Below are positions 1-59,802 of a DNA stretch of 64,000 bases, piece by piece. The notes under the pieces were generated by a model, which saw nothing but the letters and a program-made list of their open reading frames with translations, had not been told where the DNA came from and ran no database searches. The stretch is taken from contig NC_135998.1 of assembly GCF_048128805.1 (NCBI RefSeq), forward strand, positions 14,035,656 to 14,099,655, read 5' to 3'. The translations under genes were made by a program, and so were the position numbers. Every line of letters begins with the position of its first letter. Position 1 is the first letter of the stretch. Source of the stretch: Centroberyx gerrardi (Eukaryota; Chordata; Actinopteri; Beryciformes; Berycidae).

Positions 1-467
1 CACCTGTGAGTCACCATCACGACCCCAAGAAGGGCTTTCTGAAACTCAATTGCCAAACCTCGGCCACCACTAAACGATATTAGTCATCATCTACCACATT
101 TACAGCTGGAAGAGGAGGGGAAAATAACAGGGGAAACAGGACAATAGACCTTTTGGGCGTAGTTCGGATAATGACATTGTTGTTATGACAGTCATCATAT
201 CCCACCTGCTGCCCAGCACCTTACAGGCACAAATAAATCATAACATATTGGCCGCAAAATGGAGAAGAAAAAAATACAACCTTTTGTTTGTTTAAATGAA
301 AAAAAAAATTAATGATTGCAATAAAGCCTCTGGTCTCTGAATGGACACGCTGAGAGGAGTGTCTCTCTCTGTCTTTGACACTGTGTGGTAATAATTCCAG
401 AGAGAAAGAAAGACAGATTTCATATTGATTATTATGATATTATGTCAGTGGGTGCTCCTTCTCTCAC
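1..467. other. plgrkt intron sequence
   Basis: Downstream of the plgrkt exon on its strand. No reading frame resembling the next plgrkt exon was found. The stretch is AT-rich with short A runs and nothing else recognisable. Confidence 0.5.
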
Positions 468-6047: not shown

Positions 6048-8040
6048 AATGCATTTTAATTTTAATTTTAAGCGCTTTACATGGTACTCAGACACTTTAC
6101 AACAGCTAAGAGAAAAAAAAGAAAAGAAATATATAAAAATACATAAAACTATTGATACGAAAGTGATGATAATAAATGAAGATGATAAAAATAATGACAT
6201 GAGTGTGCATATTAGTAGAGTAGAATTGATAAAAACAGTGCTTGGTTTCCAGTTGTCAGTTTGTTTATTTGTGGAGAGGCTGTGGGAGTCAGATATTGTA
6301 GGCCGTTTTGAGAAGGTGGGTTTTGAGTTTGTTTTTGAATGAAGTTAGTGAGTCCTGAGTTTCTGATGTGTGAAGGGAGGGAGTTCCAGAGGGTCGGGGC
6401 TCTGTCCCCCAAGATGTGGTGCTTGGTCCTGGTGATGGGGGTCAGGAGGTTGGCATCAGCTGATCTGAGGTGGCGGGTGGGGGTTCGGTGATGGAGAAGG
6501 TTTATCAGGTATGAGGGGGCAAGATTAATTAATTATTTAAGTTGTGTATGATGGACACTGGGGTGGATAGTTGGACTATAAACATTAAGTTCATTGATTA
6601 AGTTTAGCAAAGGGATAGGACCAAATAAGTATTTTACTTCTTCCTACTCCATTTCGGACATGTAATATTTATTTATTTATGTTGTTTATTGATAATTTGT
6701 TGTATATGTTTACTGTTAATTTTATTGGTTATTCTTGTTTTGTTTTCTTATGTATATATATATATATATATTTAACATGTTCGAAATACATCTATTCTAT
6801 TCTATTCTATTCTATTATTGAGAGCTTTGTATGTGATGAGGAGGATTTTGAAGTGGATTAGGTGCTTTATTGGGAGCCAGTGAAGGTGTTGAAGGATGGG
6901 TGTTATGTGATCTCTGGAGTGGGTGAGCAACCGGGCAGCTGAGTTCTGAACGTATTGTAGTTTTTGGAGGACGGTGGAAGGGAGGCTATACAGGATGCTG
7001 TTGCTGTAGTCTAGTCTGGAGGTTATGAATGCGTGGATGAGAAGGAGAGGGTGGGTCGAATTCGAGCAATGTTGCGGAGATGAAGGAGAGGGTGGAATCC
7101 AAAGTGACGCCAAGGTTACGGACCAGGGGGAAAGCTGTGACTGTGTGACCGTCGATGTTGAGTGAGAAGTCCTGGGAGGAGGGTGAAGAGGGATTTGGGG
7201 CCGATGATGAGGATTTCCAATTTTTTGCTGTTGAGCTTGAGGAAGTTGCTGTTCCATCCAGGTTTTTATTTCAGTGAGGCAGTTCGTGAGGGTGGAGAGA
7301 ATGGCAGGAGTGATGGTTATGGTGGAGATGTAGAGCTGGGTGTCGTCGGCGTAGCAATGAAACTGTAGTCCGTGGCGCCGTATGATGTGACCTAGGGGGA
7401 GCATGTAGAGGATGAAGAGGAGGGGACCGAGCACCGAGCCTTGGGGGACACCGTGGGTGGCAGGGGTGGTGTCGGATTTGCAGTTGTTGATGGAGATATA
7501 GTGAAATCTATCGGAAAGGTATGATTTGAACCACAAGAGTGTTGAACCAGTTATGCCAATGCAGGATTGCAGGCGACTGAGGAGGATGGGGTGGTTGATG
7601 GTGTCGAAGGCTGCACTGAGGTCGAGGAGGAGGAGGATGTTGAGGGAGCCGGAATCAGAGGAGAGTAGGAGGCAGTTTCTGTACTGTGGTGTGTTTGAAA
7701 GCCTAATTTGAATGTTTCATATAGCTGGTTGGCGTGGAGGTGTTATTTGAGCTGAGTGGCGCCTGCACGTTCCAGTATTTTTGAAAGAAATGGGAGGTTT
7801 GAGATGGGTCTGAAATTGTTGGCGTTGTCAGAGTCCAGGCCAGGCTTCTTGAGGATGGGTGTGATGGCAGCAAGCTTGACGGGAGAGGGAACATTGCCAG
7901 AGGTGAGGGAGGAGTTTATTATGCCAGTGATGAGTGGGCTAAGACAAGGGAGACAAGCTTTGACAAGGGTGGAGGGAATGGGGTCCAGGGGGCAGGTGGA
8001 GGACTTGGTGCCGGTGAGACCGAGGGACTGTACTGTGAAG
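6048..8040 (-). mobile_element. L2/CR1-type non-LTR retrotransposon, 5'-truncated and degenerate
   Basis: On the minus strand, conceptual pieces in order are PISNLPFLSKILERA (near 7800), then HGVPQGSVLGPLLF, then HCYADDTQLYIS (the reverse transcriptase catalytic box with YADD), then RLDYSNSILYSLP, QNSAARLLT and HWLPI. After a 290-bp interruption it continues with RAPTLWNSLPSHIRNS. These are C-terminal reverse transcriptase landmarks of vertebrate L2-like LINEs. Several frameshifts separate the pieces, so it is dead. The 3' end on this strand is near 6048, with TGTAAAGCGCTT and a short A/T tail. It sits in the inferred intron 1 of cd274. Confidence 0.85.
6524..6813 (+). mobile_element. retroelement 3' fragment inserted into the LINE
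   Basis: The LINE frame reads through KALNN at 6814 and resumes with LAPSYL at 6523, so about 290 bases were inserted. The insert contains AGTATTTTACTTCTTCCTAC, typical of a second LINE's 3'UTR, a TA run and a (TTCTA)n tail at the right end. That tail orients it on the plus strand, opposite to its host. An ATTA sequence at each junction may be the target duplication. Confidence 0.7.
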
Positions 8041-8150
8041 ACTGGTACAGTTACCGCAGTTACATTTGTATGGTGATAGCATATTGCAAAGTCCTTTGAG
8101 ACATGCTTGTGATGAAGGGCTATATAAATAAATTCACTTGAACTTGATCT
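8041..8150 (+). mobile_element. LINE/SINE 3' end
   Basis: Contains CTTTGAGACATGCTTGTGAT and GAAGGGCTATATAAATAAA followed by a TTGAACTTGA-like tail. This is the usual 3' terminus of teleost L2/Rex-related elements. It is in plus orientation and abuts the minus-strand LINE. Confidence 0.6.
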
Positions 8151-8953: not shown

Positions 8954-9008
8954 ATGGACTGGCCGCTCTTCTTCTTTTTGCAAGTCACGTCTTGGCCATT
9001 TCTGTCAG
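8954..9008 (+). CDS. cd274: cd274 coding exon 1: signal peptide
   Basis: ATG at 8954 begins MDWPLFFFLQVTSWPFLS, a hydrophobic signal sequence. The acceptor TTCATTAG ends at 8948 and the donor is GTATGT at 9009. It ends in phase 1. The signal ends near residue 18, just before ALFTVEA, the equivalent of the mature start in PD-L1. Confidence 0.85.
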
Positions 9009-10239
9009 GTATGTAATGTACCGTGTATAGTGTATGTACTGATACATGCATGTGTACAAGTATATTGTAGACTTGTATAAATACAGAAAGATTGCATCTA
9101 CATGAGACTTTGCTATTTGACATACATGAGGCAATTTACCACTGAAATATAAACAATATAGTAAGCACAACAATTACTTCAGTGACTGTATAGTGCTGCA
9201 TCTTGTATGTTGCTCCTTCATTGAACATGTCCTGGCTGGAGAACAAAATTGCTTTAATCTGGACATCATACAGGCTACTTATTAATAGTACGTACTTCCT
9301 CTAAACTCTCCGCAGCCTTGTTCACTGTGGAGGCAGAACAGCGCACTTATGAGGCCGAGTTCAGAGGCGACGTTGTAATGGGCTGCAGGTTCAAACCCCA
9401 ACCGCTGAATACCGAATACCTGACGGTGACCTGGCACCGGATCACTCCCGCCTCGTCTCTGGAAGTGTACCGGTTGGACAGCGGCGTGGAGAACTTGGTA
9501 TCCCAGGACCCGCAGTACCGAGGCCGAGTCAGGCTGCTCGCCGAGGAGCTGAGCCAAGGCCGGGCCAAGTTACAGGTCATTATTGGCAGTGGGTGGTGTG
9601 TTCAGATTTACCTAGTGGCGTTAGGGGAGGTAGCGGGTTGTTTTCTATGAAGATTCCCTCCAAATTATGTGGTAAACAAGGAGGAGACATTACACGCTGT
9701 GCATATGCCATCCCTTTTTTATCCTAGCTCAAAATCACTGTGTGAGAATCAGGTGTCCCGCTGATTGCCCCAGGACGGCTTAGGAGCTGTGTGGGAGTCC
9801 TAGCTCATGTTAAATTGTCACATTCCTCCCGCCTTACTTTCTGTCTTCACCATACTGTCTGAGATACTGAGGAAGAGCTGCTGAGAAGGGACAGAGGACG
9901 GCACGCCTTGCTTTAAAATAAAATGATAGGTGGACAAAGAGCTGCGCTGAGACGTTCCCTCTGTGAGGTGTTTCTAGTTTGGTGTTAATAAATTCACCGC
10001 CCTATTGGAGCAGGTCTGTGTGTGGACTCTACTGAAAGAGCAATACCACTCAACCTTACAACTACAAACTCATATATGTTATTCCTATGATTGATGAGAG
10101 TCCAGTCAGTATTTGCGAAAATGAACGGCTCTTCCACAGAGAGACAGGTGTTGATATTCAGAAAAGTTTTCATTCTTATGGCATTTCTGCTTCATTAGAT
10201 AGAAGGCTGTATAGTAGAGAATGACAGCAAATGAGAGAT

Positions 10240-10284
<45 letters not shown>

Positions 10285-13200
10285 CGACATGCAACAAAAT
10301 TCATGAGCCAGCCACTAGGATGTCTAAGGACTCTGCTTTCTTCTTTTCTCAAATCCCAGGTGTCCAACCTCAGGATGAATGACTCAGGGACTTACCAGTG
10401 TTTGGTGCAGATGGGGGTAGCTGATTATAAAAAAATAACTTTGTCCATCAAAGGTTAGTACTAAGTCTGTGTCACAATGTAATCATAGAATTTTTTTTTC
10501 CAGATATATGGGAATGGCCTTGCGCAATGTCCAGATAGGTGGTCATTTCTGGGCAGAGTATTACTCAGACTGAAAATGAAAGTAAGACCAGCATTACTCA
10601 GTTTGACTAGTGTTGCTTTGTTGCGCAAGATCGTCCCCTTACCCAAACTGCAACATGCCGGAATTCATCTCATACTAGTGCATTTTAATGTGGATTCCCA
10701 TAAAACCTCTTCCTGTCGTCTCCAATATTCCAAATGTCCATTAAGTCTCACAAATACAAGGCAGTTACTGTATGTTTATATTCCTCTCATCTGTTTCTCC
10801 CCCAGCACCTTATAAAACGGTGACTAAACGCATCCAGAAATCTTCAGAGGGAGATGAGGTGCAGCTAACCTGCGAGTCTGAGGGATACCCCACTGCCTCA
10901 GTCATCTGGACTGATAGAAACATACAGAGAATCAGCTCCAACACCTCCGCTGTGACAACACCAGACCAACTCTTTCGGGTCACCAGCAAGATACAAGTCA
11001 GATCCTCTGAGAAAAACAACTACACATGCAACTTTACAGATGGAGGCCCCTCTGCAAGGTTTGATATTCCAGGTATGATGCAATTTTTGTTTAAGGCTTC
11101 CTTTCCTGGACCATGCTCAGACATTTTAACTGGAGAGGACTCTAGCAATAAAAAAGTAATTACTTTCATCAGGTTACTGTTTTTTTAAATAGAGAAAATT
11201 AAGACAAAATATGCAAGTGAGAAGCAGGGCAAATAGACAGGGGCCTTGTTTGCTTCAGTATTTTGGCATAGAAAATTCCTTCATGCCACCCACAGATGAG
11301 GTGAGAGAAAATGAGAGAGAACTGCAGCAGAATTGTCCTAACTTGTTCTGGTGCTTTCTATCAGAAAAGTTTATTACAGTCAGCAGGCAGAGTAGGTTCT
11401 TGTTGCAGGAATCAGTAGGCGAAGCCTCGAACGTTTGCAGATAAACAGAGGAAATATAATGTCATCACCCACCAGTTTTTCACAGTCAACTGCTGTTTCC
11501 TGTCATATTTGCTTTGATTGAGATCTCTTCATGACTGGTGCCCACCCACATCAAATGTGTGATGAAGACGTAAACATGATATTTGAGAATATGATTGTGA
11601 ACGCTTTACTCTGCCTTTCAGTAGAAACTGTAGGTTGTGTTTGGGTGTTTGCACCGTGTGAGATGGCAGTATGTAGGAGTGCTGTGACAGAGGTGTGTTT
11701 CCACACTGCTCTTGTATCCATGCGAGGTTTAGTGACGTGTGTGTGTATCTGTGTGTGTGTGTGTGTGCGTAGGCTATGTATGTCTGTGTATGTAAATGTT
11801 TTGTTTATCTGTGTATATGTATGTGAAGGCTTATTATTATTTGCATATGTGTATGTATGCACATTGCACATGTTTTCTTTGCTCAGGTGTGTATATGTTT
11901 GCACTCAAACACCTGCAGATATGCTGAAAGAGCATCTGTCCCTATAAGTTTTTGTGTGTGTTTTTTGGGGGCACGTCTCTGAATTTTGTCCATAACAGTT
12001 AATTTATGTTGAAGACAAAACTAAATCAGATAACAGCGATATCTTTTGATATGAAAGAAGATGCATCAAACAAAACAAATGCAACAATAGATAGGAACAC
12101 AAAGAAACTACGATATTTTCCTCACACAATTAATCAAAAGACAGGATTATCATTCAAGGGTTGTGACAATTTCTATCTGTCTGACCATCTGTCAGACAAA
12201 TAGAAAAATACAGTTTTGTTTTTTTTAAGGTTTTGACCAATAAGGGGAAGTTCGGGCCAGTGTGTCTTTGGCATATTTGGTTATTTCCCAAGTACACCAT
12301 AGCTGCTAAAAATATTCCTAGCAAACCAAATGCCAATTATCTATGTTTCCAGCTGACCCTGTCATTGCCGAATTTCATACGATGCTGTAGCTGTTTTTTG
12401 GTACATTTCAAGGATAACCTTTCTGTGTTTTCACTCTTTTTCACAGATGAAATCCCAATAACGACTGTCAGAAATGATGCTCTCGTCATTGCATTGTGCA
12501 CAGTGGTGGTTCTGGTTGTTATTATTGTTGCAGTGCTCACCTATCGACGGCAAAAAGGTAATCAATCACGCAATTCTTTGCAAAGACATTACAGTACCAG
12601 GTTCAGTAGCAAATAACTCATAACATGCACAACAATACACAGAATATAGGTGTAATAATCTGACACAACATTAGTGTTAACTAGAGATCCGTCTCTCCTT
12701 TATTTCCTTTTCGTGTCTTCACATTGTTTTAGCTTACATTGCCACAATCCACTTGATACAGTGACATTAAAGGCTACAATGACTAATGTCCTCATGACAT
12801 GTTAATAAATTAATTAAATAATAATGAAATAACTGTCTAACATTGTAAGCTACACCACATTCTTTTCAATTAGTTGCCATGATTGATTCATCCTTTCTTT
12901 GTCAAAGCCACAGCAGGCCAGGAAAGTTTATTGGTATTTTTCTTGATTTTTTCTTACATGGCTGGAGGGAATCCTGTACCTACAGTAAAATATTTGTGTA
13001 ATTTATACAGTAAAGATTTCCACACATCCTTTGCTGCGTGTACGTGCTTGTATCAGTGCTTTCCAAAACAGTCAAGTCACTTTGGCACTCAAAAGAGGAA
13101 GTAATCTGCCGTAGCAATGCCTTTAGCCTTTAGGCAATCAATATAGACATAGGGCTCATGAGGGAGTTTTGTTGGCATGTGACTTATGTTAGCATGTGAG

Positions 13201-13855
13201 ATCATGACTTAGCTTTTTGGAATTGACGTCTGTGAGAACCAAGTTTGGAAACACCCAACCAGGTCTTGGTTTCCGTGACCGGGGAATTTGAGAATGTTTG
13301 TAAATGTGTGGGTGGTTTCTCAGTTTAGCAAATTGATATTGTTCACAATCCCCGAAACACACTGCAATAATTTCAGTAGTAGGCTTATTACACATTGTGT
13401 TTCTGTAAATGAATGTGTGAACCTGATTATTAAAAGAAATATTATTTCAATTAAGGGAATGGAAACCTCCAACAACAGTTTTAAACTAGTGCCAGTAAAG
13501 GGTGAACAATGAGAGAGGCAAGTTGTTCTGCAGCATATACCGACAGAAAATAAAAGAATATAAATCACATCATAATCACACATCATGTCATAATATAAAT
13601 AACCTTCTTGTTAAACATATAGAAATGTAAAACACTTTCCAAAACTTTTCCAAACTCTTCCAAATAATAATTTTAATATGATTGTATTCACCTGTTGTTT
13701 TTCTGCAAACCTGTTTTTAATTCATGTCTGACATCTCTCTTATCTTACTGGCTTGTATCATTTATAAAGGGATTTGTAACTCTATTTAGAAAAATTGTGT
13801 TTATTATTACTATTATGAATTGTGTATATGCATACAACTACTTACATACATAAAT

Positions 13856-13904
<49 letters not shown>

Positions 13905-13950
13905 TACATACATGCATACATACATACTTACAGTACATACATACATAAAT

Positions 13951-13999
<49 letters not shown>

Positions 14000-14029
14000 T
14001 ACATACATGCATACATACATACTTACAGT

Positions 14030-14110
<81 letters not shown>

Positions 14111-15080
14111 TACATACATACATACAGTACATAAATAGTGATTTTTTTCTTCCTTAGGGTCCAGACGTACCGGGACGCCCAGCACCAGGAACCTTCTGGT
14201 TCATGATCCGGTTGCTGCTACTGCCTGTGAGTCTGAGTAGGGGCTGTAGCCTACAGTTGATTAAAAAATCAAATTGCAGCATAAGCTCTTGCATGTTGCA
14301 AATCACAAGCGGCACTGATATTTTTGTTAGAGGGCGAAGGTGTTTTGCAAAAAATGGTGACCTACAAATGAAGTTGTACACTAGAAAGAATATATGCTGT
14401 GTATTACTTGCATTCATTTCATTTAATTCAAAACTTGAGGTGTAAATGACTGAGTTTATGCCGCCATATTTCTATTTCAGCCAACATAACAATGGTTGAA
14501 TTACTGACTTATTAATTGAAGTTAATTGATTTAGTATTTGTGTGAATGTTACTCTGTATGTTGGCCTTCTAACTAACACAGCTGTTCTTCTCTATTAGGT
14601 CTACAAATAAATACACTAAGGGAGAAGGAGAAAACTGTCATTTATACTGAAGGTAACTGATGCTGATAAGGGACTTTTGAGAAGGGATATGGGTATTTAT
14701 ATCATCACTAATATCATTCAGCTTCCCATTTTATTCAGAACTCCCATTTTTTTTGCAAAGCTTGCATCAATGGAGAATTTTCCCATTGCTTTTCTGTCTC
14801 TGTCAGCATCTGCCATATCCTTTCCACAGGAAACTAGTCTGATTCATGACATTTACAGTAATGAATATTTTTGTGTTTTGTGTTTTTTGTGAGATCTGTT
14901 AGCTGTCAAGTAGCTGACAATTTTGTGTTACATTTTGCACAGAGAGTGTGGAAACCCTGGGGGAGTTTCTGAAAGCCCATTACTCAAGATTCTCCCTCAG
15001 CATGGAGGTGAGGCACTTCTGTCAGGAAAAGCTGCCACAGAGACTGCAGAACAGGTGAGTCATCAAAGTGTATGTTCATC

Positions 15081-15117
<37 letters not shown>

Positions 15118-17842
15118 CGTGTGTATCCACACAAGGAAATAGAGAGGGAGCTGATCGGTGGTGTGTCCTGACAAAAACATCAGTGTCCCTGTGCTGGAAA
15201 ACCCCGTTACATCCTCCTATTTATGTGTAATTATAAACAGACTGAAATGAACCATTTGTGTGTGTGTATGTGTATGTGTGTGTGTGTGTGCATGCGTGTG
15301 TGTACGTGTTCTTGTATTTCTATATTTTGGAGGATAAAATTATGGTTAAGATTAGAATTAGGGTTTTTACGGTTAAAGGAAAATCACATCCTCAGATCCT
15401 CTTACTCTATATATATATCATCAATCTGTGATGTTCAGTGCGTTCCAGTAGTTACTTTGTGATGAAATGTTGTAATTTACCTTTTGGCATAGGCCTATGC
15501 ACCTTCCCAGAACTTGTCTCATCTACCTCTACTTCAGTTAGTGATTTCCCTACATTTCCCTTTCGACCATGAAACATGAACCATGAACGGGACAACAGGT
15601 GTGAACAGGTGTCAACTTGTTCCATTGAGCTGTGGGTTTTAGGTAGGTGGAGAGCGCGATAACGATAGCGATTGCACAATAAGAGCAAGAGAGCAAGTTT
15701 TTCCAGTCGAGAAAGTTGCGCCCCTTACTCAAAACGCAAGTGGCCGCATTGCATTCTGGTCTATTGAGGCTGCTGTCGGTTGAGAAATTGGTCTCTCTGC
15801 CTCTTCTACGATGGATTTCTCCCTGTATGATTGTTGAACGTCGGTGTAAAATGGAAAGAAGAAAGAAGCCCTTGCTCTTTTATTATGAGGGACTGACACC
15901 AAAACCTGACATTTACTGTTTTAGATAGCTGAAAATGTTTCGGTCACTTCCATGTTTGGCCAGTTATGCGCGGTAATAAGAAAAACAAACCATCAGACAA
16001 CAAAGTGGGCCCAGAAATGCAAAGTACATCGCTAACAGCTGTTTTTGACAGCGTTTAAGTGTTTTGGGGTGGATTTTCCCTTTAAGGTTTCAGTTAGGAT
16101 TAGGTTTAAGGGTTAAGGTTAAGGTGAGGTTAGGGTTAGGGCTTGGGTTTAAGGTTAATGTCAGAATCAGGATTGGGTTTTGGGTAAAGATTAAGGTTAA
16201 GCATGTAGTGATGAAGGTCGTGGTCAGGGGTTTGGGGTTAGGGAATGAATGTGATAAATGAAGGTCCTCACAAGTATAGTAATGCAAATGAATCTGTGTG
16301 TTAGGAATACCCGATTAGCGGCTGGATTCACAGCAAAGAGGCGGTAGTAAGGTGCAACCACCAAGGTGTTTTATCCACTCACAAAAAGACAGCAACAAAA
16401 CTGGTTCAACATGGCAGGACTAAAGGTAGCAACAGGTAATCAACATGGACGCTACCAACAATGGGACACTTAACAATGGCATTCACCAATACAATATATT
16501 TCCCCTTTAACCTACCATCCTATCTGTCTTAATACATACAAAACAACAGATCTTGCTCTCAAACAAACAAATTAATATTACAGCATATAAACAATAGTAC
16601 ATATTTTAGTCCAATTACACAGTACCGTATCTATCCTAGCTATCCTATCACATGGTCCCTCCCCGAACTATATCACATGGTCCCTCCCCGAACTATATCA
16701 CATGGTCCCTCCCCGAACTATATCACATGGTCCCTCCCCGAACTATATCACATGGTCCCTCCCCGGACTATATACAGGTGCCGGGGAGCTCTTTTGCCCA
16801 AACACCCTGGAACACAGACAAGACAACACAGGTAAGTGATTGCATAAACCAACAATTAGAACACTTGACATTGCACCACTATAGTATTGCACAAGCCCCA
16901 TACCAAATCATGGCATTTGTTAGCCAGACAGTGAAAACCCGTTTCATGTCAGGTTAACAATCAACTTAACACTTGTTTGTTTCCTTCCACAGGTAGAGCT
17001 TTAATCATCCTTGCCCACACTGAGTAACTGCTGCAGCAAGACAAGATTAACCTCACAAACAACTTAAAATGTTTAGTAAAATTTTCAATAAAATACTTTC
17101 AATAATGACTCTTTGTGCAATTATTAAATCTGTGCAAATGTTTAACTGTGCAAATTATGCTGTGTAAACTACTGAATAGACCAATGTACAATATAAATGT
17201 GCAAATAGTGCAAAGTATTGGGTAACAAAGTGCGCGTTTGTTACAGTGTAAGAGTTGAAAATTTGTGGAAAGACACATTTGGTTGACATCTAGAGCCGAT
17301 CATCAGGGTGTCAGCCTATCCTTGTGTATTTTTATATACTGCAGACTTACATTCTTGGTTCTGCTTGTCGTTTCAGCGAGGGCCAACCTGTGAGTCTTCA
17401 AGCCTTACTCCCAGAAGCTGGAGAGACACTTCTCCTGGAGGGACCCCCAGGGAGCGGGAAGACCGCCGTAGCCCAAATCCTGGTGTCTTCCTGGGCCGAG
17501 GGGCCAACTCATGCCCTCCTACAACTCAGTGTCCTTCATCTCCTCTTCTCTGTGGATGGCAGCAACGTGAAGGGCGACTTGTTTCAGGGAATAATGACAC
17601 AACTTTCTCTCGGGGAGAAGATATCAACAGAGGGCGACCTAAGGACTGTGCTGAGTGGGTCCAGGGAGGTCCTGCTGCTGTTTGATGGCTACAGAGAAGG
17701 GAACCAGGATTTGGATGAGTCCCTGAGGAGGTTTCTAAGAGAGAAAGAGGGATGCAGGGTGCTGGTCACGGCCTGCCCGGGACACTGCCCCAAACTCAAG
17801 GAGATTGTCGGGACAAGAGGGTTTCTGAAGCTCCAAATATAG
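8954..17842 (+). CDS. cd274: PD-L1-like protein with C-terminal NACHT-type NTPase (whole CDS, 9 exons)
   Basis: Join 8954-9008, 9316-9575, 10360-10453, 10806-11072, 12447-12557, 14158-14226, 14599-14652, 14943-15054, 17377-17842: 1,488 bases, 495 residues plus stop. All junctions use GT/AG and keep frame (phases 1,0,1,1,1,1,1,2). Order: signal peptide 1-18; IgV about 19-136 (C42-C119, W58, DSGTYQC 113-119); IgC 137-225 (C159-C211, W171; N-glycosylation at N182, N208, N212); transmembrane helix about 237-257; basic YRRQK; linker to 340; NACHT-like P-loop domain 345-495 (Walker A GPPGSGKT 363-370, Walker B LLLFDG 440-445). The ectodomain follows PD-L1 closely (RxRLL, ADYKxIT, then APY, CxxEGYP). 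PD-L1 binds PD-1 and restrains T cells; the NTPase tail is not part of known mammalian PD-L1. plgrkt beside it supports orthology. Exons 1-5 are very sure; joining exon 9 is inferred from phase and lack of another gene start. Confidence 0.82.
9316..9575 (+). CDS. cd274: cd274 coding exon 2: IgV domain, first part
   Basis: Residues 19-105. FTVEAE, then VVMGCRF (C42), VTWHR (W58), a YRGRVRLL strand D and LSQGRAKLQ strand E. It runs from acceptor CTCCGCAG to donor GTCATT in phase 0. The donor lies in the middle of the V domain, between strand E and the DSGTYQC motif. The exon is distinctly GC-richer than the surrounding introns. Confidence 0.92.
9576..10359 (+). other. cd274 intron splitting the IgV domain, LTR-like content
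   Basis: 784-base intron. The part from about 9740 to 10062 has LTR-like traits: a TGTGAGAATC start, two AATAAA signals and a CAACCTTACA end. No clean target duplication was found. A GA microsatellite (10236-10281) precedes the acceptor. Confidence 0.4.
10236..10281 (+). repeat. (GA)n microsatellite
   Basis: A GA run inside the IgV-splitting intron, about 80 bases before the acceptor. Confidence 0.95.
10360..10453 (+). CDS. cd274: cd274 coding exon 3: IgV domain, second part
   Basis: Residues 106-136: VSNLRMNDSGTYQC (C119), then ADYKKITLSIK, the F and G strands. ADYKxI is a PD-L1 signature in the strand that contacts PD-1. Acceptor AAATCCCAG, donor GTTAGT, phase 1 end. Confidence 0.92.
10806..11072 (+). 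CDS. cd274: cd274 coding exon 4: IgC domain
   Basis: Residues 137-225: APYKTVTKRI, VQLTCESEGYP (C159), VIWTD (W171), FRVTSKIQV and NNYTCNF (C211). A single-exon C-type Ig domain in the mammalian PD-L1 arrangement. NTS, NYT and NFT are potential N-glycosylation sites. Acceptor CTCCCCCAG, donor GTATGA, both phase 1. Confidence 0.93.
11073..12446 (+). other. cd274 intron 4
   Basis: GT-rich microsatellite patches near 11738-11770 and otherwise AT-rich unique sequence. No additional exon seen. Confidence 0.6.
12447..12557 (+). CDS. cd274: cd274 coding exon 5: stalk and transmembrane helix
   Basis: Residues 226-262. DEIPITTVRND stalk, a 21-residue hydrophobic helix rich in V, I and L (237-257), then the stop-transfer YRRQK. 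Acceptor TTTTTCACAG, donor GTAATC, phase 1 at both ends. In mammals the protein ends about 30 residues after the helix; here the frame continues. Confidence 0.9.
12558..14157 (+). other. cd274 intron 5 with large CA/TACA array
   Basis: AT-rich unique sequence to about 13800, then a compound CA and TACA array reaching to within 30 bases of the next acceptor. Confidence 0.6.
13846..14132 (+). repeat. compound (CA)n/(TACA)n array with internal duplication
   Basis: Three CA runs separated by TACA-rich spacers. The spacer TGCATACATACATACTTACA recurs about 106 bases apart, so a larger unit of CA run plus spacer was duplicated. Confidence 0.9.
14158..14226 (+). CDS. cd274: cd274 coding exon 6: cytoplasmic linker
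   Basis: Residues 263-285: a basic GSRRTGTPSTRN start, then LLVHDPVAATA. No known signalling motif. Acceptor TTCCTTAG, donor GTGAGT, phase 1 at both ends. Short and weakly constrained, so boundaries rest on splice signals and frame. Confidence 0.65.
14599..14652 (+). CDS. cd274: cd274 coding exon 7: cytoplasmic linker
   Basis: Residues 286-303: CLQINTLREKEKTVIYTE, charged, probably helical. VIYTE looks vaguely like a tyrosine phosphorylation site but is not a full ITIM. Acceptor TCTCTATTAG, donor GTAACT, phase 1 at both ends. Its exact size, multiple of three, allows skipping without frame loss. Confidence 0.6.
14943..15054 (+). CDS. cd274: cd274 coding exon 8: helical segment before the NTPase
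   Basis: Residues 304-340: ESVETLGEFLKAHYSRFSLS, then MEVRHFCQEKLPQRLQN. It looks amphipathic and helical, comparable in position to the helical linker that precedes NACHT in NLR proteins. Acceptor CATTTTGCACAG, donor GTGAGTC, entering in phase 1 and leaving in phase 2. Family not recognised. Confidence 0.75.
15081..15116 (+). repeat. (GT)n microsatellite
   Basis: A GT run just after the exon 8 donor. Confidence 0.95.
15377..16081. mobile_element. TTAA-flanked MITE (Kolobok/piggyBac-like), in cd274 intron 8
   Basis: Left end TTAA (15373-15376) then AGGAAAATCACATCC; right end GGGTGGATTTTCCCT then TTAA (16082-16085). The termini are imperfect inverted repeats (AGGGAAAATCCACCC type) with TTAA duplications. 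About 705 bp without transposase. The flanks on both sides belong to one GGTTAAGGTTAGGG-rich stretch, showing insertion into it. Confidence 0.6.
16086..16240 (+). repeat. GGTTAGGGTTAAGG-rich degenerate minisatellite
   Basis: Irregular TTAGGG/TTAAGG-like units. Similar patches occur at 22780-22835 and, on the other strand, at 62870-63000. Interstitial and too irregular to be a telomere. Confidence 0.7.
16299..17245 (+). mobile_element. solo-LTR candidate
   Basis: Begins TGTTAGGAATACCC and ends GTTTGTTACA. It has a tandem-repeat block (16649-16773) like a U3 enhancer, a TATA-like ACTATATA, a strong GTAAGTG splice donor after 16831 and AATAAA at about 17087. These fit an LTR of about 947 bp. 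GTGT occurs at both borders but does not give a clean TSD with TG..CA ends, so the class is uncertain. It lies just before the NTPase exon. Confidence 0.45.
16649..16773 (+). repeat. five tandem copies of a 25-bp unit
   Basis: Unit CACATGGTCCCTCCCCGAAC plus TATAT, repeated five times in register. The last copy has one substitution (CCCCGGAC). It lies in the U3-like part of the LTR candidate. Confidence 0.95.
17377..17842 (+). CDS. cd274: cd274 terminal exon 9: NACHT-type P-loop NTPase
   Basis: Residues 341-495. Begins EGQPVSLQALLPEAG, then TLLLEGPPGSGKTAVA (Walker A 363-370) and W380 as in many NACHTs. Later EVLLLFDGYREGNQDL gives Walker B (439-445) with the DGY variant seen in NLRC4. CRVLVTACPG (467-476) occupies the sensor-1 strand but lacks the usual arginine. 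The frame stops after GFLKLQI, so winged-helix and leucine-rich parts of an NLR are absent. Acceptor CTTGTCGTTTCAG supplies the base completing a phase-2 codon. A last-exon NTPase segment of about 150 residues suggests nucleotide binding; hydrolysis is unproven. Confidence 0.85.
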
Positions 17843-18055: not shown

Positions 18056-18061
18056 AATAAA
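18056..18061 (+). terminator. cd274 polyadenylation signal candidate
   Basis: AATAAA 214 bases after the stop codon, the first canonical signal there, which supports exon 9 as a true terminal exon. Confidence 0.55.
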
Positions 18062-18667: not shown

Positions 18668-18937
18668 AACGTCATTAAACAAGATGACTGTCTTTTTGCA
18701 CTCACTTGATGTGTTTAACCTCAACTATTTTTAGTCAGCTGACAATAGACAAAACAACATTACTAACATTACACTTGAAAAATGAGTGTCGTGTGTGTTA
18801 CTGCTTTGTCACCATCACATGGGAGAACTTGCTGCTCAGGGAAAAAGTTGGCACTGATAACGGCACGATGATCATAATCATGATAGGTCATAACCACCAT
18901 CATATGATCATCATCAAAAAGTCAAAAAGTTCCTCAT
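18668..18937 (+). repeat. direct repeat R2, copy 1 (269/270 identical)
   Basis: 270-base block starting AACGTCATTAAACAAG and ending AAAAAGTTCCTCAT. It matches 20857-21126 at all but one base by eye. The open frame inside is the same in both and shows no known domain. Confidence 0.95.
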
Positions 18938-18941
18938 GGTA

Positions 18942-19120
18942 AACAAGATGACTTTGCTTTTGCACTGATGTGTTTAACCTCAACTATTTTTAGTCAGCAG
19001 ACAATAAACAAAACAACATTAGTAACATTTGAAAAATGAGTGTTGTGCGTTGCTGCTTTGTCACCATCACATGGGAGAACTTGTTGATCAGGGAAATAGT
19101 TGGCAGTGTAATGTTCATAC
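18942..19120 (+). repeat. diverged third copy of R2
   Basis: TAAACAAGATGACTTTGCTT and later CACATGGGAGAACTTGTTGA echo R2 with scattered substitutions and small deletions. Directly abuts copy 1. Confidence 0.85.
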
Positions 19121-20856: not shown

Positions 20857-21126
20857 AACGTCATTAAACAAGATGACTGTCTTTTTGCACTCACTTGATG
20901 TGTTTAACCTCAACTATTTTTAGTCAGCTGACAATAGACAAAACAACATTACTAACATTACACTTGAAAAATGAGTGTCGTGTGTGTTACTGCTTTGTCA
21001 CCATCACATGGGAGAACTTGCTGCTCAGGGAAAAAGTTGGCACTGATAACGGCACGATGATCATAATCATGATAGGTCATAACCACCACCATATGATCAT
21101 CATCAAAAAGTCAAAAAGTTCCTCAT
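20857..21126 (+). repeat. direct repeat R2, copy 2
   Basis: See 18668-18937. The sequence diverges immediately after CCTCAT at 21126, giving a sharp breakpoint. Confidence 0.95.
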
Positions 21127-33163: not shown

Positions 33164-34726
33164 CTGTGAGCGCAGAGAGAAAGGAAAAAAACAAAAAAAA
33201 AACATGGTAAGAATTGAATACACTTTTTGGATACACTTTTGACTCGCTAAAATGTCTGTTAGAGCTTGACATTTATGCTCCAGTGTGACAGGATCCGCCT
33301 GGACTGATGGGCTCAGTTTGGTTAGACCTGAATTTTTCACTTAATTGCTCATGTATGGAGGCAGTCTTGGGTTCAAAAATATGGTTGTAAAATACTGTCA
33401 TCGGCAATTTATTTTTAGGATGTTTCAAGAGATGTGTCAAGCCTTGCCGGGCTCTAATTATGAGTCCCCTCCTTTACCCTTTGGGCTATGTGACTCATCC
33501 ATCCATTTGTTTCACCATCCCTTCATACCTCCCTTCCTAAATCTGACCTACAGCACCAGTTATACGAAGTCTTCTGCATTTCTCTCTTTTTGGGTTAAGC
33601 GCTGCAACATCCATCTCGCTATCTTTCCTCCTCTCCCTCCCTCATACCTGTTTCTCTATGAGTCGTATGGTGTCTTCTGAGTGTCCCTCCTTGGCCTTTT
33701 TGACCTGTGCGACAGCGTTAGAGCGCACTCTCCTCAGCGAGTCTTTGGCCTTGTTGCTGAACTGTTTGGCCAGCTTGGCAAGGTTTTCACGGTGTTCCCG
33801 CGTTACTCTGGAGGGAAAGGGGAGAGGAGACGGGCAGAGATGGGAGAGAAGGAGATGGAAAGAGAGGGAGGAAGACAGAAAAGGGAGACCGTTAAGAAGG
33901 GAAACCCTGGGAGACACCGACAAATAACGGCTTCTTACAAGTGATATTGTAGTAGACACTGTAAACGCAGTTGTACACTCAAGCCTGGGTACACACACTT
34001 AAGTATGGACAAGCACACGCACACATGAATGAAAACAACAACCTCACCACATGCACATGCAGGCATTAAGTCTGTTTGTGGGCATGAAGTCCACTCAGTT
34101 TAGTTCTGATTTCACCAAGCCATGACTTCCCAAGGTCACAGACCGGAGCTGAGATGTCCATCAAACCAATAACTTGGCATCAGTCAATCGCCCAGAAAAC
34201 ACTTCTTCCCATTTCACTCTCCCTCTCTTTCCTTAATTGGCTTTTTTTTTTTTGTTTTTGCCTCGGGGACTATTTGCAAACAATCCGGGGGTAGTGTCTA
34301 TTTACCGCAAACAATACGGCCTAATTACTAATTCCAGGGCCAATCAAGGAGCGCGTTGTCTTTGGAAATGCAAATGGAGGCTCGGTGCGTGCCGAGACTG
34401 ATTGCAGGGGGAAAGCAGTCTGACTCTTATGTCCCTCCTCTGCCAGACTAACACCTGCTGCTTCACGCACATACACGGACCCACGGGCAGGCACACACAC
34501 ATGCACATACATGGGCGTATACACATGCATGCACACGCTTTTAGACACACACACACAGACTCAGACTTATGTGCACATGCATCACATGCACGCACGTGTA
34601 TATGAAAGCACATATACACACACACTCATGCGCCCGGTGGTTTAGTGAGTGCATGAGTGACGGATAATGTTGTGTGAGGTTGTTTGACTTGGCAGAGAGC
34701 GTAGGCCAGAGGAGAAAAGGAGAGAG

Positions 34727-42367: not shown

Positions 42368-45300
42368 CAACTGACGTCATTCCATTCCACCATCTCATCT
42401 CTCCTGTCAGCTCTAAGTCCTGCTGCCTCCCTGGATTACTGTGCAGCTGGACAGAAGAGAGGGGGATGGACAGACTGGAGGAAGGCAGCAGGCAGTGAGG
42501 GATAGATGGATGGAGAGAGGAGGCAGGCAAGATGATGGGGTGGTGGGAAGGAGGGAAAGAGGCAGGCAGGGTGAGAGAGGGAGAGTCTAAGGAGAGAGCA
42601 ATGGAAAGGGCTTAGGAGATGGAGGGAGTGAAGAAGAGAAGAACCCTTGCAGTTCCTGCCTTGTAAACTAAATTTCTTCTGTAGGTCAATAGAAGTGTTC
42701 AGTTCAAAAGTAGGAGACAGAGATTGAAAATGCCAGGTGAGCAGAGCCCAAAAGATAGAGTTGGGAATTGTCGGAAAATAAAGAAGGATAAATCATGGAG
42801 GGATAAACGGAGGGACAGGGGGAAGATTGAAAATGACTCAGGGAGGAGTGAAAGTCAATGGATAGAGCAAGAAATGGCTGAAGGAAAGGATGAAGGCAGT
42901 GAGAGAAAAACTTGGTAAGGAACAAAGAATCAACACAGGATGAGAAAAGGGCAGATAAATGAATGAAGAAAACTGTTGTCTATTTGTCCCGTATATTGTG
43001 TAAATGTAAAATGAGACTGCTTCAGATGCAAATCAAATTTCAGAGAAAGTGCAATTTTATTTTCTCTTGGTGCATCATCCCATCTCATTTAAAAAGCATA
43101 ACACTCTGAGGGTAAACGAGTAGAAACTCAAACATTTTCAATTCAAAGCTTGAATGTAGCTGCTGCCTCCTCCCTCGGGAGCTTCCCTTAACCCCACCCT
43201 CCCTCCTCCCTCCTGACTCCCCCGAGCCCGGCTCACATTTGTTACAGCCCAGAGGCGAGGGGTCACAACCTGGATGTAGTTGAGGAAACAGAGGTCAACC
43301 AGAGGTCAAGGTGAGGTCACATAGGTCTCTCCTCACTCTGAGCCCTCGGGCGCTTTGTCAGGTAGATGCAAACAAAGAGGAAGACTTACAGACATTTATC
43401 CAAAAGTGAAAATGTGCCTGAGTGCTTTCTTTTTCACAAAGTAGTGATACGGGTGAATAGAGAAGCAAAAGCAATGGCCTCATGTAAACATGGGGCACGT
43501 GCAAAACAAAAATACATTTTCACTTTCTGAGCAAAATTTCGAGTTTGTAAACAATGTGAGAATTGGTGTACTGCTGCACATATTGTGGTATATACTGGGT
43601 GTTATGGGTGATATGATGACCCAAAAGGTAAAGGTAGGCTAAAGTAAAAAACAAACAAACACAGTAAGTCATAGAACTTGTCACTTCACAACAAGTTGAT
43701 TCATAAGTCGTCAATTAGAAAATATTGCTTCAATGCACCACCATTTACGTTTTTAAATTGTGGAAATCAAACAGTAAAGCATGAAATGGAATAAGAGAAA
43801 GATTCATTAGCCTGTTGCATAATAAACCCTAGCTGTCACATTAGCTACACGTACATGATATGATATTCAGTTCCCTGCAGTCGTTCCATTGTTCCTGCAA
43901 GCAATTCTGTTCTTTGTTTCAGACTTCTCATTCCTCTGTTAAGAATAGTAGGAAATAACAATTATGACAAAGCAACTTTACCACAATGAGTTAAGACTGA
44001 AATTGCTGTTATTGTGGTGCCATATACAGTATTTCCACACAATAACATTACGTACAGTGAGTGCCTGGCATTGCTCGAGGACAATGGCAACGGCTGACAA
44101 TGGCTGTTGCCATCACTTCCTACCATATTACCTTTCCTTTTATTTAGCCAATAAAGCCATAGCCAATAGCCATAGCCAAAGCTGTATAGCCAATAAATGG
44201 CTCCAAATAATATCAACCTCATCCCCTCAGGCCTGCGATGCCTCTTCTATCGCTACATTAAACTGCTTGGCTCTGTCACCATATCCTACCACTGCTATGC
44301 CACCGACACTCACCTCCACCTTTCTTTTCCTCCCTCTGACACTAAGGTTGAGGCATGCACTGATGCTTGCCTATCTGACATCTCCAGTCAGATATCTGAC
44401 CACCAACTCAAGTTCGGCCTCGACAAGACTGCTGAGGCTGAACATGAGTTGAGTTAACTTTGAGTTGAGTGCATTTTTTAGTGGTTACTCAAAGTTTTAT
44501 ACACGAGGCCCCAGAGTTTGAGAAAGGGACGGAGGGAGAGAGAAAACACAGGGAGGCTGAACAAATATGTAGCTACCTGGTGAGGTTCGGATGCTAAGGC
44601 TGCGTGTGAAGTCATCTTTGAGCGTATTGAGAACAGCTGTCATGTCCCCTTTCACTTCGTCCAGACTGATGATGTCTTCCACCAGAGCCGAATTTATGTT
44701 CACCTTAGCCGACTGGCCCTTTGCCTTGGCTAGGGGGATGAAGAGAGAGGGAAGAAAGAAAGAAAGGCAAACCTCATATCAATACACAAATTAAAACTGA
44801 TAACCAGATTTAACAAGTAATCCACAATTAAGCCTCTGCTCTATTTTTTCCACTTTCATTTGGTTGCATTTACTGTACTTTCAAAAGAGTAAGAGGGATC
44901 AGAGGTATGGAGTGAGGGATGACTGGTCTTATCGGCCTGCTTGCTGGAACCTGGTCAGAAATAAAGCTATATAGATTTTTTTTCTTCTAGTTTTTAAAAT
45001 TGATAAAAGCCACACAAGAGCACTAGTGTGAAGTGGAAGGTTCTCTTCTTCTCAAAAACTCAGACAGCACTTTAATGTTCCAAGCACCAAGTTAGAAACT
45101 GAAGCAGAAAGGCTGGAGGAGAGATTTCAACCCCCAAGTCTCCTCAGCAGCTGCTCTACAAGAAGAGGCTGTTAGTGTTACTCTAGAGTAAGTGGTAGAA
45201 AACTTAGTGTAAAACCCACATCTGTTTCTGCACAGGGAGTAGCTGTGGCTAGAAGCTCTAGCTAGCTGATGCAGTTTCTCCATGGGAGCAGTGAGACACC

Positions 45301-46451
45301 CAGACAGAGCAAGAGACACGTTTCCACAGAAACTCATTACAGAGCTGATGATCATAACCTCCGTACAGACAGGAAAAATTGAAAAATAAACAAGCAAAAC
45401 TGACGTGATGGCATCCCTTGACACAACAGAAAGCAGCAAGGTCTATAGATAGATCAAGATAGATGACATCTATCTTGACTTCTTTGTGTAAAGGAGAGAA
45501 TGAATGAAGATGACTTGAAACTATGCTTCAACATTATATGTTTTGATTGAATCCTGCTTGCATTTATAATCCTTTTGCGCCAGGCTTGGCAGCCAGCATG
45601 ATCAGTGTCTTCTTTGGGCAATCTAGCTTTTATAAACTTTTTATGCAGATGTCATTGGTCAGTGTTACTGGTCACAAATACCCAACGCACATTTTTCCAC
45701 TGTTAGGTGCATGGGGGCAGAAATGTACAGGCGCTTGGATAGAATCCTGCTTGAAGCTGATTGGATTTCACTTTACAGCGTCAGGGAAATTCGCACCAAC
45801 TAGCTCTGTTCACTTCCCTGTACTGACGTTTCATGCATTTGTGCCGCTCAGTCTGTCTGAACGCAGAGTAACATGTATAGTGTAGCAGACTGACTGCCGG
45901 GCTAACTAACTGCCAAACTAATTAACATACTAACTAAATTCACCGTTCCAGTCTCCTTATCATTACTATTATTTTAACAATAAAATAAACTCTTGGTTTG
46001 CTGACCAATGCCAACCTGGGAAACAGGCTTTCCAAGTAGCAAATTGCATGTTCCCCTAGCCTTTCCCCTAAACTTTTTCTCATACTGATATGAACTATTT
46101 ACCTACAGTAAAGTACTGAATAAAAGAGACAGGACAGAAAAAGAGGCGATGACAATATGCAAATGCTGCCAGTCAGACCCAAATACAAAAAGTTACTGAT
46201 ATAAATCTACCAACTGAAACACCAGGATGCCACAATGTGAACAAAAGCGAACGCCAGTCTCTGCAATCTCTGTACTGACCTTTTGCCTTCTTGGTGGCAT
46301 AGAGCCTGGTGCAGGCGGCAGGGAAGAGAGGGGTGTGGCGGCACAGAAGTGGTGCGCTGACCCTGGCAGAGGCCGCTACGGGAGACCTGACCAGTCGCAC
46401 CAGGGACTTACACAGCACAGGCCGCAGCAGGCCCAAGTGACTCATGGCCAT
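33086..46451 (-). CDS. mrrf: mitochondrial ribosome recycling factor (whole CDS, 6 exons)
   Basis: Exons in gene order: 46451-46280, 44729-44577, 39744-39626, 35212-35121, 33807-33648, 33163-33086. Together 774 bases, 257 residues plus stop, close to the mammalian size of about 262. With elongation factor G2mt, the product splits the post-termination mitochondrial ribosome into subunits in the matrix. Residues 1 to about 57 are rich in R, K, S, A and L with no acidic residue, a mitochondrial presequence ending near YATKKAK. The mature RRF fold follows: VNINSALVEDIIS, IRTSPG, QISMKSPQLIVVN, GMNLNPEVDGTII, VTREHRENLAKLAK, NKAKDSLRRVR, SEDTIRLIEKQ and the C-terminal LATKTKELLG. All junctions are GT/AG with matching phases (1,1,0,2,0). 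Head-to-head with rbm18, as in mammals. Confidence 0.96.
33648..33807 (-). CDS. mrrf: mrrf exon 5
   Basis: Residues 179-232, the long helices of domain I: VTREHRENLAKLAKQ, NKAKDSLRRVRSNA and SEDTIRLIEKQ. The acceptor TTTCCCTCCAG supplies the base completing K178/K179. Donor GTATGA. Confidence 0.95.
34200..34400. promoter_or_regulatory. candidate conserved noncoding element in mrrf intron
   Basis: A repeat-free stretch with several homeodomain-like TAATTA/TAATTGG cores, ATGCAAAT (octamer-like) near 34368 and CCAATCA boxes. Sequence character only; no conservation data available. Confidence 0.2.
34720..34760 (+). repeat. (GA)n microsatellite in mrrf intron
   Basis: A GA run in a purine-rich stretch; CA runs follow at about 35221-35255 and 35556-35577. 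Confidence 0.9.
35121..35212 (-). CDS. mrrf: mrrf exon 4
   Basis: ATAAATRALREGGMNLNPEV then DGTIIKVPTP, the end of domain II and hinge. GMNLNPEV is a strong RRF signature. It runs from acceptor CACCCCCAG to donor GTGAGT, leaving in phase 2. A CA run abuts the acceptor. Confidence 0.95.
35213..39625 (-). other. mrrf intron 3, no coding signal
   Basis: Contains the possible transposon at 35.9 kb, a GT run near 37862-37890 and otherwise unique sequence. No exon-like homology on the plus strand. Confidence 0.5.
35885..36200. mobile_element. possible nonautonomous DNA transposon fragment
   Basis: AAGGCTGGGATATAGTTCTG then GTGTCCACGGTGG and GTAGACCGCCG resemble ends of common fish nonautonomous elements. 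Opposite end and target duplication not established. Confidence 0.3.
39626..39744 (-). CDS. mrrf: mrrf exon 3
   Basis: GALDHIVVTTQDGKFPLNQL then GQISMKSPQLIVVNMTSFPE, domain II beta strands. Acceptor GATGCTTTAG, donor GTAAGG, leaving in phase 0. Confidence 0.95.
39745..44576 (-). other. mrrf intron 2, repeat-rich
   Basis: Holds CT and GT runs near 40676-40822, many CA tracts at 42070-42365, CTAATA units at 40185-40222 and the LINE fragment at 44.2 kb. No other gene seen. Confidence 0.5.
44197..44452 (+). mobile_element. LINE reverse transcriptase fragment
   Basis: Plus-strand frames give ISYHCYATDTHLHLSFPPSD, a worn copy of the YADDTQLYLSFPP box of L2-like LINEs, then DISSQISDHQLKFGLDKT. 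The catalytic YADD is mutated to YATD. It lies in an mrrf intron, antisense to the gene. Confidence 0.75.
44577..44729 (-). CDS. mrrf: mrrf exon 2
   Basis: Starts AKAKGQSAKVNINSALVE and ends LSIRTSPG; the first helix of the mature RRF domain and turn. Acceptor ATCCCCCTAG, donor GTAGCT, phase 1 at both ends. Confidence 0.95.
46280..46451 (-). CDS. mrrf: mrrf exon 1 (start codon and targeting sequence)
   Basis: The ATG at 46451 is two bases inside an exon whose acceptor (TTTCACAG) ends at 46454, so at least one noncoding exon must lie upstream. Reads MAMSHLGLLRPVLCKSLVRL and on to YATKKAK. A second ATG, two codons later (MS), could also be used. Confidence 0.9.
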
Positions 46452-46453
46452 AA

Positions 46454-46964
46454 CTGTGAAAGAGAGAGAAGGATGGAGGAAGAGAGAGTATAAAGTAAAA
46501 CTTGAGATACCAGGGCAGGGATACAGACACAGAGGCATCCAGCTTGGAAAGAATTCAGTCAATTAAAATATATTTTTATACCATGACAAATTGTGCACAA
46601 ATCTGTTGAAACCACGAACGTCAACAATATGAATCAAAATGAAGCAATAGCCCACATCAACCAGTAGGAGGTAGGCCTTCGACTTGTATTAATTCATTAC
46701 AGCACCATAGTCTCTTCTCTCTTGACAACAATAAGATGAGACTTGGTCGCAAAAATGACTGAAAACAAACATCAGGAAAAAAAAAACTATCAATGACATA
46801 TTTTCTTAGCAACAACCAATGAGGTTTTATACACCAAAACAGCTCTAACAATATAGAGAATTGAGGAGGAAAAGAGGCTCTTCTGAATCCTATCACACCT
46901 CACTGCAGCTCTACAGTACATACAATAACACTTGTAACCTCTCCCTCTTTCTCTCTCTCATGTA

Positions 46965-49658: not shown

Positions 49659-59802
<10,144 letters not shown>

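Follow-up and report, generated by a model that had tools for sequence, protein, structure and literature searches.

Does the checkpoint ligand PD-L1 of a ray-finned fish end in a nucleotide-binding domain beneath the membrane, as the product of one gene, and what might such a domain do there? The question is raised by a locus of Centroberyx gerrardi that lies within a stretch of 64,000 nucleotides of contig NC_135998.1 (positions 14,035,656 to 14,099,655; the whole stretch is called the window here, and its own numbering is used throughout). At this locus a gene of nine exons is predicted to encode an ectodomain of the PD-L1/CD274 type, a single transmembrane helix and a cytoplasmic tail that closes with the nucleotide-binding core of a NACHT nucleoside triphosphatase (NTPase). 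We consider its identity as PD-L1 with a NACHT core to be very likely. Mammalian PD-L1 has a short tail with no folded domain, and the debate on whether it sends a signal into its own cell is still going on for mammals, where so short a tail is hard to read. With an NTPase core inside the cell, the "brake signal" of the fish checkpoint may listen as well as speak.

Structure of the gene

Rebuilt from the window, the coding sequence has nine exons that add up to 1,488 nt and translate into 495 residues, with a single stop at the end. GT..AG borders are present at 8 of 8 introns, and the phases after exons 1 to 8 are 1,0,1,1,1,1,1,2. The sequence-only reading of this DNA had given the same exon number, borders, phases and lengths, all of which were reproduced; it had also placed a signal peptide, IgV, IgC, a transmembrane helix and a P-loop tail in the product, an order recovered here by Pfam (V-set, Ig_3 and NACHT) and hydropathy, and its motifs GPPGSGKT and LLLFDG were located. 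Introns included, the gene spans 8.9 kb, of which intron 8 takes 2.3 kb. Its features are as follows, the Walker motifs being counted on the window sequence and the poly(A) signal read from it.

8954..9008, + strand: exon 1, start codon and signal peptide, residues 1-18, phase 1; the start fits the homologue consensus MDW-L---LQV
9316..9575, + strand: exon 2, bulk of IgV, residues 19-105, contains F21
10360..10453, + strand: exon 3, remainder of IgV, residues 106-136, contains D127 in ADYK
10806..11072, + strand: exon 4, IgC domain, residues 137-225
12447..12557, + strand: exon 5, stalk and transmembrane helix (residues 238-256, about 12482-12538)
14158..14226, + strand: exon 6, basic juxtamembrane cytoplasmic linker
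14599..14652, + strand: exon 7, linker CLQINTLREKEKTVIYTE; absent from the database model P0001
14943..15054, + strand: exon 8, linker directly before the NACHT core, residues 304-340; tail profile match E 3.6e-9
17377..17842, + strand: exon 9, predicted NACHT nucleotide-binding core and stop, residues 341-495; Pfam PF05729
17441..17464, + strand: Walker A GPPGSGKT
17672..17698, + strand: Walker B LLLFDGYRE
18056..18061, + strand: poly(A) signal AATAAA

The ectodomain

In a Pfam search with the 495-residue product, V-set scores 41.3 bits (cut-off 26) and Ig_3 48.6 bits (cut-off 30), and further Ig models match as well. The signal peptide and the transmembrane helix are assigned from hydropathy only: the helix, at about residues 238-256, has a mean Kyte-Doolittle value of 3.56, and the N-terminal window 4-22 averages 1.29. 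When the product is compared with the sequences of solved structures, the first 11 of the 13 matched at E<=1e-30 are PD-L1/CD274, and the remaining two are CD276. We take F21 and D127 of the fish protein to be the counterparts of F19 and D122 of human PD-L1. Both residues are identical in the alignment to the PD-L1 structure 3fn3, and they are kept in 135 (F21) and 142 (D127) of 146 aligned rows, the window included. F19 and D122 are named in PMC12151841 as PD-1 contact residues of PD-L1.

The ectodomain thus shares with PD-L1/CD274 of the B7 family its signal peptide, IgV, IgC and one transmembrane helix, the nearest solved structures and the presumed F19/D122 contacts, in support of the earlier reading as a PD-L1-type ligand, and it is by prediction of the PD-L1 type, that is, the cd274 of ray-finned fishes. 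The difference from PD-L1 as otherwise known lies inside the cell, where the fish protein has a tail of about 235 residues ending in the NACHT NTPase core.

Ectodomain and tail as one gene

The homologue set used here numbers 145 proteins: 135 were found in a first search (120 listed), and a second search with three tarpon and bonefish queries returned 68, of which 25 were new (P0121-P0145). The closest of the 135, P0001, comes from Centroberyx gerrardi, bears the name "programmed cell death 1 ligand 1-like" and is identical to the window product except for exon 7, which is replaced by a few residues. Stretches resembling exon 7 also occur in P0119, P0110 and P0013. It was observed separately that P0001 joins exon 6 to SFCT before exon 8, for which the window would need an acceptor after GTTA rather than AG; this joint is either that of an alternative isoform with an odd junction or an error of the model.

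Homologues align across the whole 495 residues, and in 122 of 145 the coverage exceeds 85% for ectodomain and tail alike. These 122 proteins speak against a gene-model artefact in which exon 9 is part of a separate NACHT gene, an idea invited merely by the 2.3 kb of intron 8 and one for which no support was found. The homologue rows known only from the source "lgn" argue in the same direction. In twelve of the 15 listed (P0013, P0022, P0044, P0046, P0047, P0053, P0055, P0085, P0096, P0098, P0106 and P0131) a single unbroken protein, encoded by a contig of 1,435-2,428 bases, runs from the ectodomain to NACHT, with an ectodomain coverage of 0.75 in P0098 and at least 0.98 in all others; the other three are the short form P0117, P0119, which is apparently cut by the contig end, and the NACHT-only piece P0144. 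Because the window gene with its introns spans 8.9 kb, these short contigs are most simply read as spliced transcripts, with retrocopies as the alternative.

The two halves also appear to have travelled together. Across 123 rows (window included), pairwise distances in the ectodomain and in the tail are correlated with r 0.889, and none of 1000 permutations is as high (best 0.222); shared descent of the two parts is therefore indicated. Within the window, the open reading frame (ORF) of exon 9 (17294-17842) has no Met ahead of the P-loop, and in a scan of six-frame ORFs of at least 20 aa with profiles of the tail and of the ectodomain, these match only exons of the PD-L1 gene at E up to 1, so that no other tail-like or ectodomain-like ORF is present. 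Exon 9 as a gene of its own is rejected because of the missing Met, the 122 two-half proteins and the correlated distances, and the artefact described above is left as exceedingly improbable. Exons 1 to 9 are, as far as sequence evidence goes, one gene. This agrees with what had been claimed from the letters alone, namely one gene (both halves in 122 of 145 homologues, the near-identical P0001, the correlated distances) with no separate start for exon 9 and a poly(A) signal, AATAAA at 18056, behind it.

The tail as a NACHT core

The NACHT family (PF05729) matches residues 358-487 with 39.6 bits against a cut-off of 26.7, and covers profile positions 2-142 of 167. It is matched by 14 of 14 scanned tails at E<=1e-3, the runner-up being AAA_22 in 6 of the 14. 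Among the best 60 of 141 matches to solved structures, those that extend beyond the P-loop are led by NLRC4, followed by NLRP1 and NAIP. The Walker A sequence GPPGSGKT fits GxxxxGK[ST]. A NACHT Walker B has a small residue after the Asp and acidic residues downstream, the usual acid standing at +3; in LLLFDGYRE there is R at +3, and +4 retains its E, like DGYNE of NLRC4.

The protein ends 8 residues past the NACHT match. From the Walker B Asp to the C-terminus the median is 57 residues (130 rows) and the length is at most 65 in true tails, the outliers being P0144 (136 residues), which extends past the gene, and P0145, whose aligned stretch is not a tail. Because so little follows the core, HD1 and WHD must be absent. 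No LRR and no CARD/PYD/BIR family is found among the best 25 of 30 Pfam matches at E<=1. Since HD1, WHD, LRR and CARD or other effector are missing, the tail is predicted to be a NACHT nucleotide-binding core and not an NLR. With NLRC4/NAIP, which are STAND NLRs, it has in common that they are the nearest solved structures for its core and that NLRC4 has the same Walker B DGYxE; it differs from them in having no CARD, BIR, HD1, WHD, HD2 or LRR and in being membrane-bound. Of the earlier description as an "NLR-type NACHT NTPase", then, the NACHT core stands (39.6 bits) and the NLR type does not, there being no HD1, WHD, LRR or effector, and the sensor-1 Arg being lost.

Some other relatives came up and were set aside. 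Midasin tops the solved-structure profile search (best 60 of 141), but it owes its score to the addition of as many as six short matches to the P-loop; the rows for adenylate kinase 9, dynein, ABC transporters and some more, which appear amid those of the NLRs, have a match confined to the P-loop stretch; and the NCBIfam and PADLOC profiles gave scattered P-loop families.

Relation to earlier descriptions of the tail

The sequence-only reading had known of no description. For the tail as such this does not hold: a very long, highly conserved, single-exon C-terminal extension of PD-L1 is reported for 9 of 13 ray-finned fishes by Kondo et al. 2025 (PMC12151841), a paper that credits Hu et al. 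2023 with an earlier note of it. As far as that text tells, it is the same extension as the one described here, being single-exon, C-terminal and conserved. For the nature of the domain the statement seems to hold, in that the main text of PMC12151841 has 0 matches to NACHT, NTPase, NLR, ATPase, P-loop and fusion, and the NACHT/NTPase identity of the tail is not named there. In the open-licence literature, with long result lists covered in part and with subscription papers, Hu et al. 2023 among them, outside this scope, no paper was found that calls the tail NACHT; in the parts of PMC8875540 and PMC12562908 that are concerned, PD-L1 and NACHT are mentioned without relation to each other. PF05729 already stands in the precomputed Pfam column of the protein search for many homologues, so the NACHT label exists in automatic annotation. 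What seems to be new, then, is not the long tail but its recognition as a NACHT NTPase core, together with the mechanism that would ensue.

Conservation of exon 9 and of the Walker motifs

Exon 9 is about as conserved as the Ig domains, with a mean pairwise distance of 0.402 against 0.415 for the ectodomain. This degree of conservation, found from eels and bonytongues to perches, speaks against a decaying passenger, a remnant of some old fusion whose sole contribution would be length; tails are missing, and Walker A is broken, in some lineages, as such a remnant would allow, and on balance we hold it to be very unlikely.

In the first search, GK[ST] and the Walker B D..E were found at the aligned places in 106 of 120 homologues. 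Exon 9 is covered to more than 60% in 130 of 145 proteins, and with P0116 and P0145 removed by eye as non-tails there are 128 tails, 119 of which keep GxxxxGK[ST] and the Walker B Asp. At 15 Walker positions the mean frequency of the top residue is 0.930, compared with 0.725 for exon 9, and 0 of 10,000 random sets reach this value, the positions having been picked as the motif, so that the test gauges its degree of conservation.

A possible mechanism and its rivals

What would a nucleotide-binding core do beneath PD-L1? The reading that we prefer, with a probability of about 0.45, is a nucleotide-dependent clustering of PD-L1 on engagement, with a read-out inside the cell. It is built on the sequence, the gene structure, the co-inheritance of the two halves and the conservation of the motifs, and its functional steps are inferred. 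The ectodomain would bind its receptor on the T cell, PD-1 or possibly BTLA in fishes, and this engagement would crowd PD-L1 in the membrane. ATP-bound NACHT cores beneath the membrane might then associate and so stabilise PD-L1 clusters, and the clustered cores could serve as a platform for cytosolic partners. The outcome would be a stronger inhibitory signal outward together with one sent in reverse into the presenting cell. The usual ADP lock of NLRs cannot be used where there is no WHD, and the state of the tail would instead depend on membrane density and nucleotide binding.

An anatomy of this kind has a precedent. The sea cucumber protein AjNLRC4 is described in PMC8699970 as membrane-located, with Ig domains that bind microbes and a NACHT that binds actin, and it is reported to oligomerise on its ligand. 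It thus resembles the fish protein in having Ig outside, a transmembrane segment and NACHT inside, and differs in being an echinoderm pattern-recognition receptor with two transmembrane helices. We infer that the two are independent fusions.

A number of observations weigh against nucleotide-dependent clustering. With HD1 and WHD not present after the core, a switch of the known NLR kind is impossible, and the tail has no effector domain. The sensor-1 Arg, which in NACHT proteins sits in TSRP, is lost in this species, which has TACP in its place; it is found in just 12 tails, and as TSRP in 3 (P0118, P0130 and P0131, Synchiropus and Pseudorasbora among them), so that it is perhaps ancestral and was then lost. 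Walker A is altered in 9 of the 128 tails: in the sea bass P0020 and P0039 (first Gly only), the flatfishes P0077 and P0081, P0105 of Cololabis, P0107 of Xyrichtys, P0113 of Takifugu flavidus, P0128 of Arapaima and P0129 of Scleropages. The Walker B Glu is missing in six elopomorph (eel/bonefish) tails (P0114 and P0121-P0125), and the Sebastes tails P0062 and P0065 have Glu where a small residue should follow the Walker B Asp. When exons 8 and 9 are taken together, the mean distance is 0.425 vs 0.415 for the ectodomain, so that the whole tail is slightly more divergent. Finally, 14 of 145 database proteins have the ectodomain without NACHT. The broken Walker motifs in some lineages and the fishes with tailless PD-L1 suggest that the checkpoint function itself is independent of the tail.

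These broken motifs are also the reason why a scaffold or trafficking role is still to be considered, and it is the main rival. The NACHT fold would here bind protein or membrane (actin, or the endocytic or degradation machinery) and set the surface level or turnover of PD-L1, nucleotide binding being structural or dispensable. Several lineages retain the tail despite a broken Walker A, actin binding is reported for the NACHT of AjNLRC4 in PMC8699970, and an interaction of hydrophobic patches with the membrane is suggested by Kondo et al. (PMC12151841). However, few stretches of exon 9 are as well conserved as Walker A and B, and their retention in 119 of 128 tails exceeds what a bare scaffold needs; such a role strikes us as rather unlikely.

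NLRC4 and NAIP, which co-assemble, are among the nearest solved structures, and the core comes with no effector, WHD or LRR, as would be expected of a partial domain that acts in trans. Both points would suit a trap or co-receptor for NLRs, in which the lone core pairs with the NACHTs of cytosolic NLRs at the membrane and damps or focuses the inflammasome signals of the presenting cell, in the manner of CARD-only proteins on CARD receptors. Against this, exon 9 is no close copy of any NLR that a word search could reach: among 822 candidates sharing words with exon 9 (shared 5-residue words were needed, and E-values were set for 5.8 billion sequences), no protein of 605-1925 aa matched at E<=1e-3. 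We judge the trap to be unlikely.

In a bolder form of the idea, PD-L1 of ray-finned fishes would be a two-way receptor, a checkpoint ligand outside and an NLR-derived NTPase anchored to the membrane inside, with T-cell contact switching a nucleotide-dependent assembly in the presenting cell and coupling the checkpoint to inflammasome-like innate signalling; this form is possible and, in our estimate, doubtful. If fish PD-L1 does have an NTPase core, reverse signalling and clustering become testable by mutation of one Lys, that of Walker A, and tailed fishes (carps, perches) can be compared with tailless ones (salmonids). Vertebrates would then offer an example of an NTPase core of NLR type under a ligand of adaptive immunity, and a conserved tail that stands unexplained in the literature would become a domain with a testable activity.

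Distribution and origin among fishes

Tailed PD-L1 is found from eels, tarpons and bonytongues to carps and acanthomorphs; the second search added tailed forms from eels, conger, moray, mormyrids, Arapaima, Scleropages, carp and Pseudorasbora. The tailless set consists of database proteins from salmonids and whitefishes, Umbra (mudminnow) and gar, together with a mormyrid paralogue and two of the lgn rows. Some of the entries call for caution: P0119, counted in the tailless 14, seems to be cut by the contig end, P0140 is named partial, and P0108 is intermediate between what was counted as tailed and as tailless. In PMC12151841 the extension is reported as already present in the bichir and as not found in salmonids. 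This would fit an early ray-finned origin of the tail followed by several later losses. A recent origin of the tail by copying of an NLR, be it a neighbouring or a known one, was weakly rejected, the window having no other tail-like ORF and the word search with its 822 candidates having given no protein of 605-1925 aa at E<=1e-3.

Two further observations concern single entries. P0117 (17 members, 1,659-nt contig) has 314 aa and no NACHT, and its ectodomain is nearest to those of the tailed Pampus proteins P0060 and P0059; either the tail was lost here or the entry is a short isoform. Two mormyrids each have two PD-L-like proteins, one tailed and one tailless (P0126/P0127 and P0142/P0143); in PMC12151841, by contrast, a second PD-L gene is described as found only in tetrapods.

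Repeats and neighbouring genes

Two introns of the gene hold simple repeats: intron 8 a 25-nt minisatellite at 16646-16773 (5.1 copies, 99% match), and intron 5 a long CA/CATA microsatellite at 13831-14137. Just upstream of the gene, at 6802-8150 on the - strand, lie remnants of the reverse transcriptase of a non-LTR (long terminal repeat) retrotransposon, with RVT_1 at 77 bits in Pfam over 6802-7716 and a piece at 7743-8150 that has no Pfam match and was placed by reading. Downstream, a 270-nt repeat occurs at 18668-18937 and 20857-21126 with 100% identity, the copies being 2,189 nt apart, and parts of a diverged third copy are seen at 18966-19108.

Farther along, an exon of ribosome recycling factor is found at 33642-33998 on the - strand (RRF, 42.6 bits in Pfam), and - strand ORFs at 44497-44778 and 46173-46562, with no Pfam match, look like further parts of the mitochondrial MRRF. 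An RRM exon at 56362-56733 on the + strand scores 20.2 bits, just under the Pfam cut-off of 20.7; it resembles RBM18, which is the neighbour of MRRF in human.
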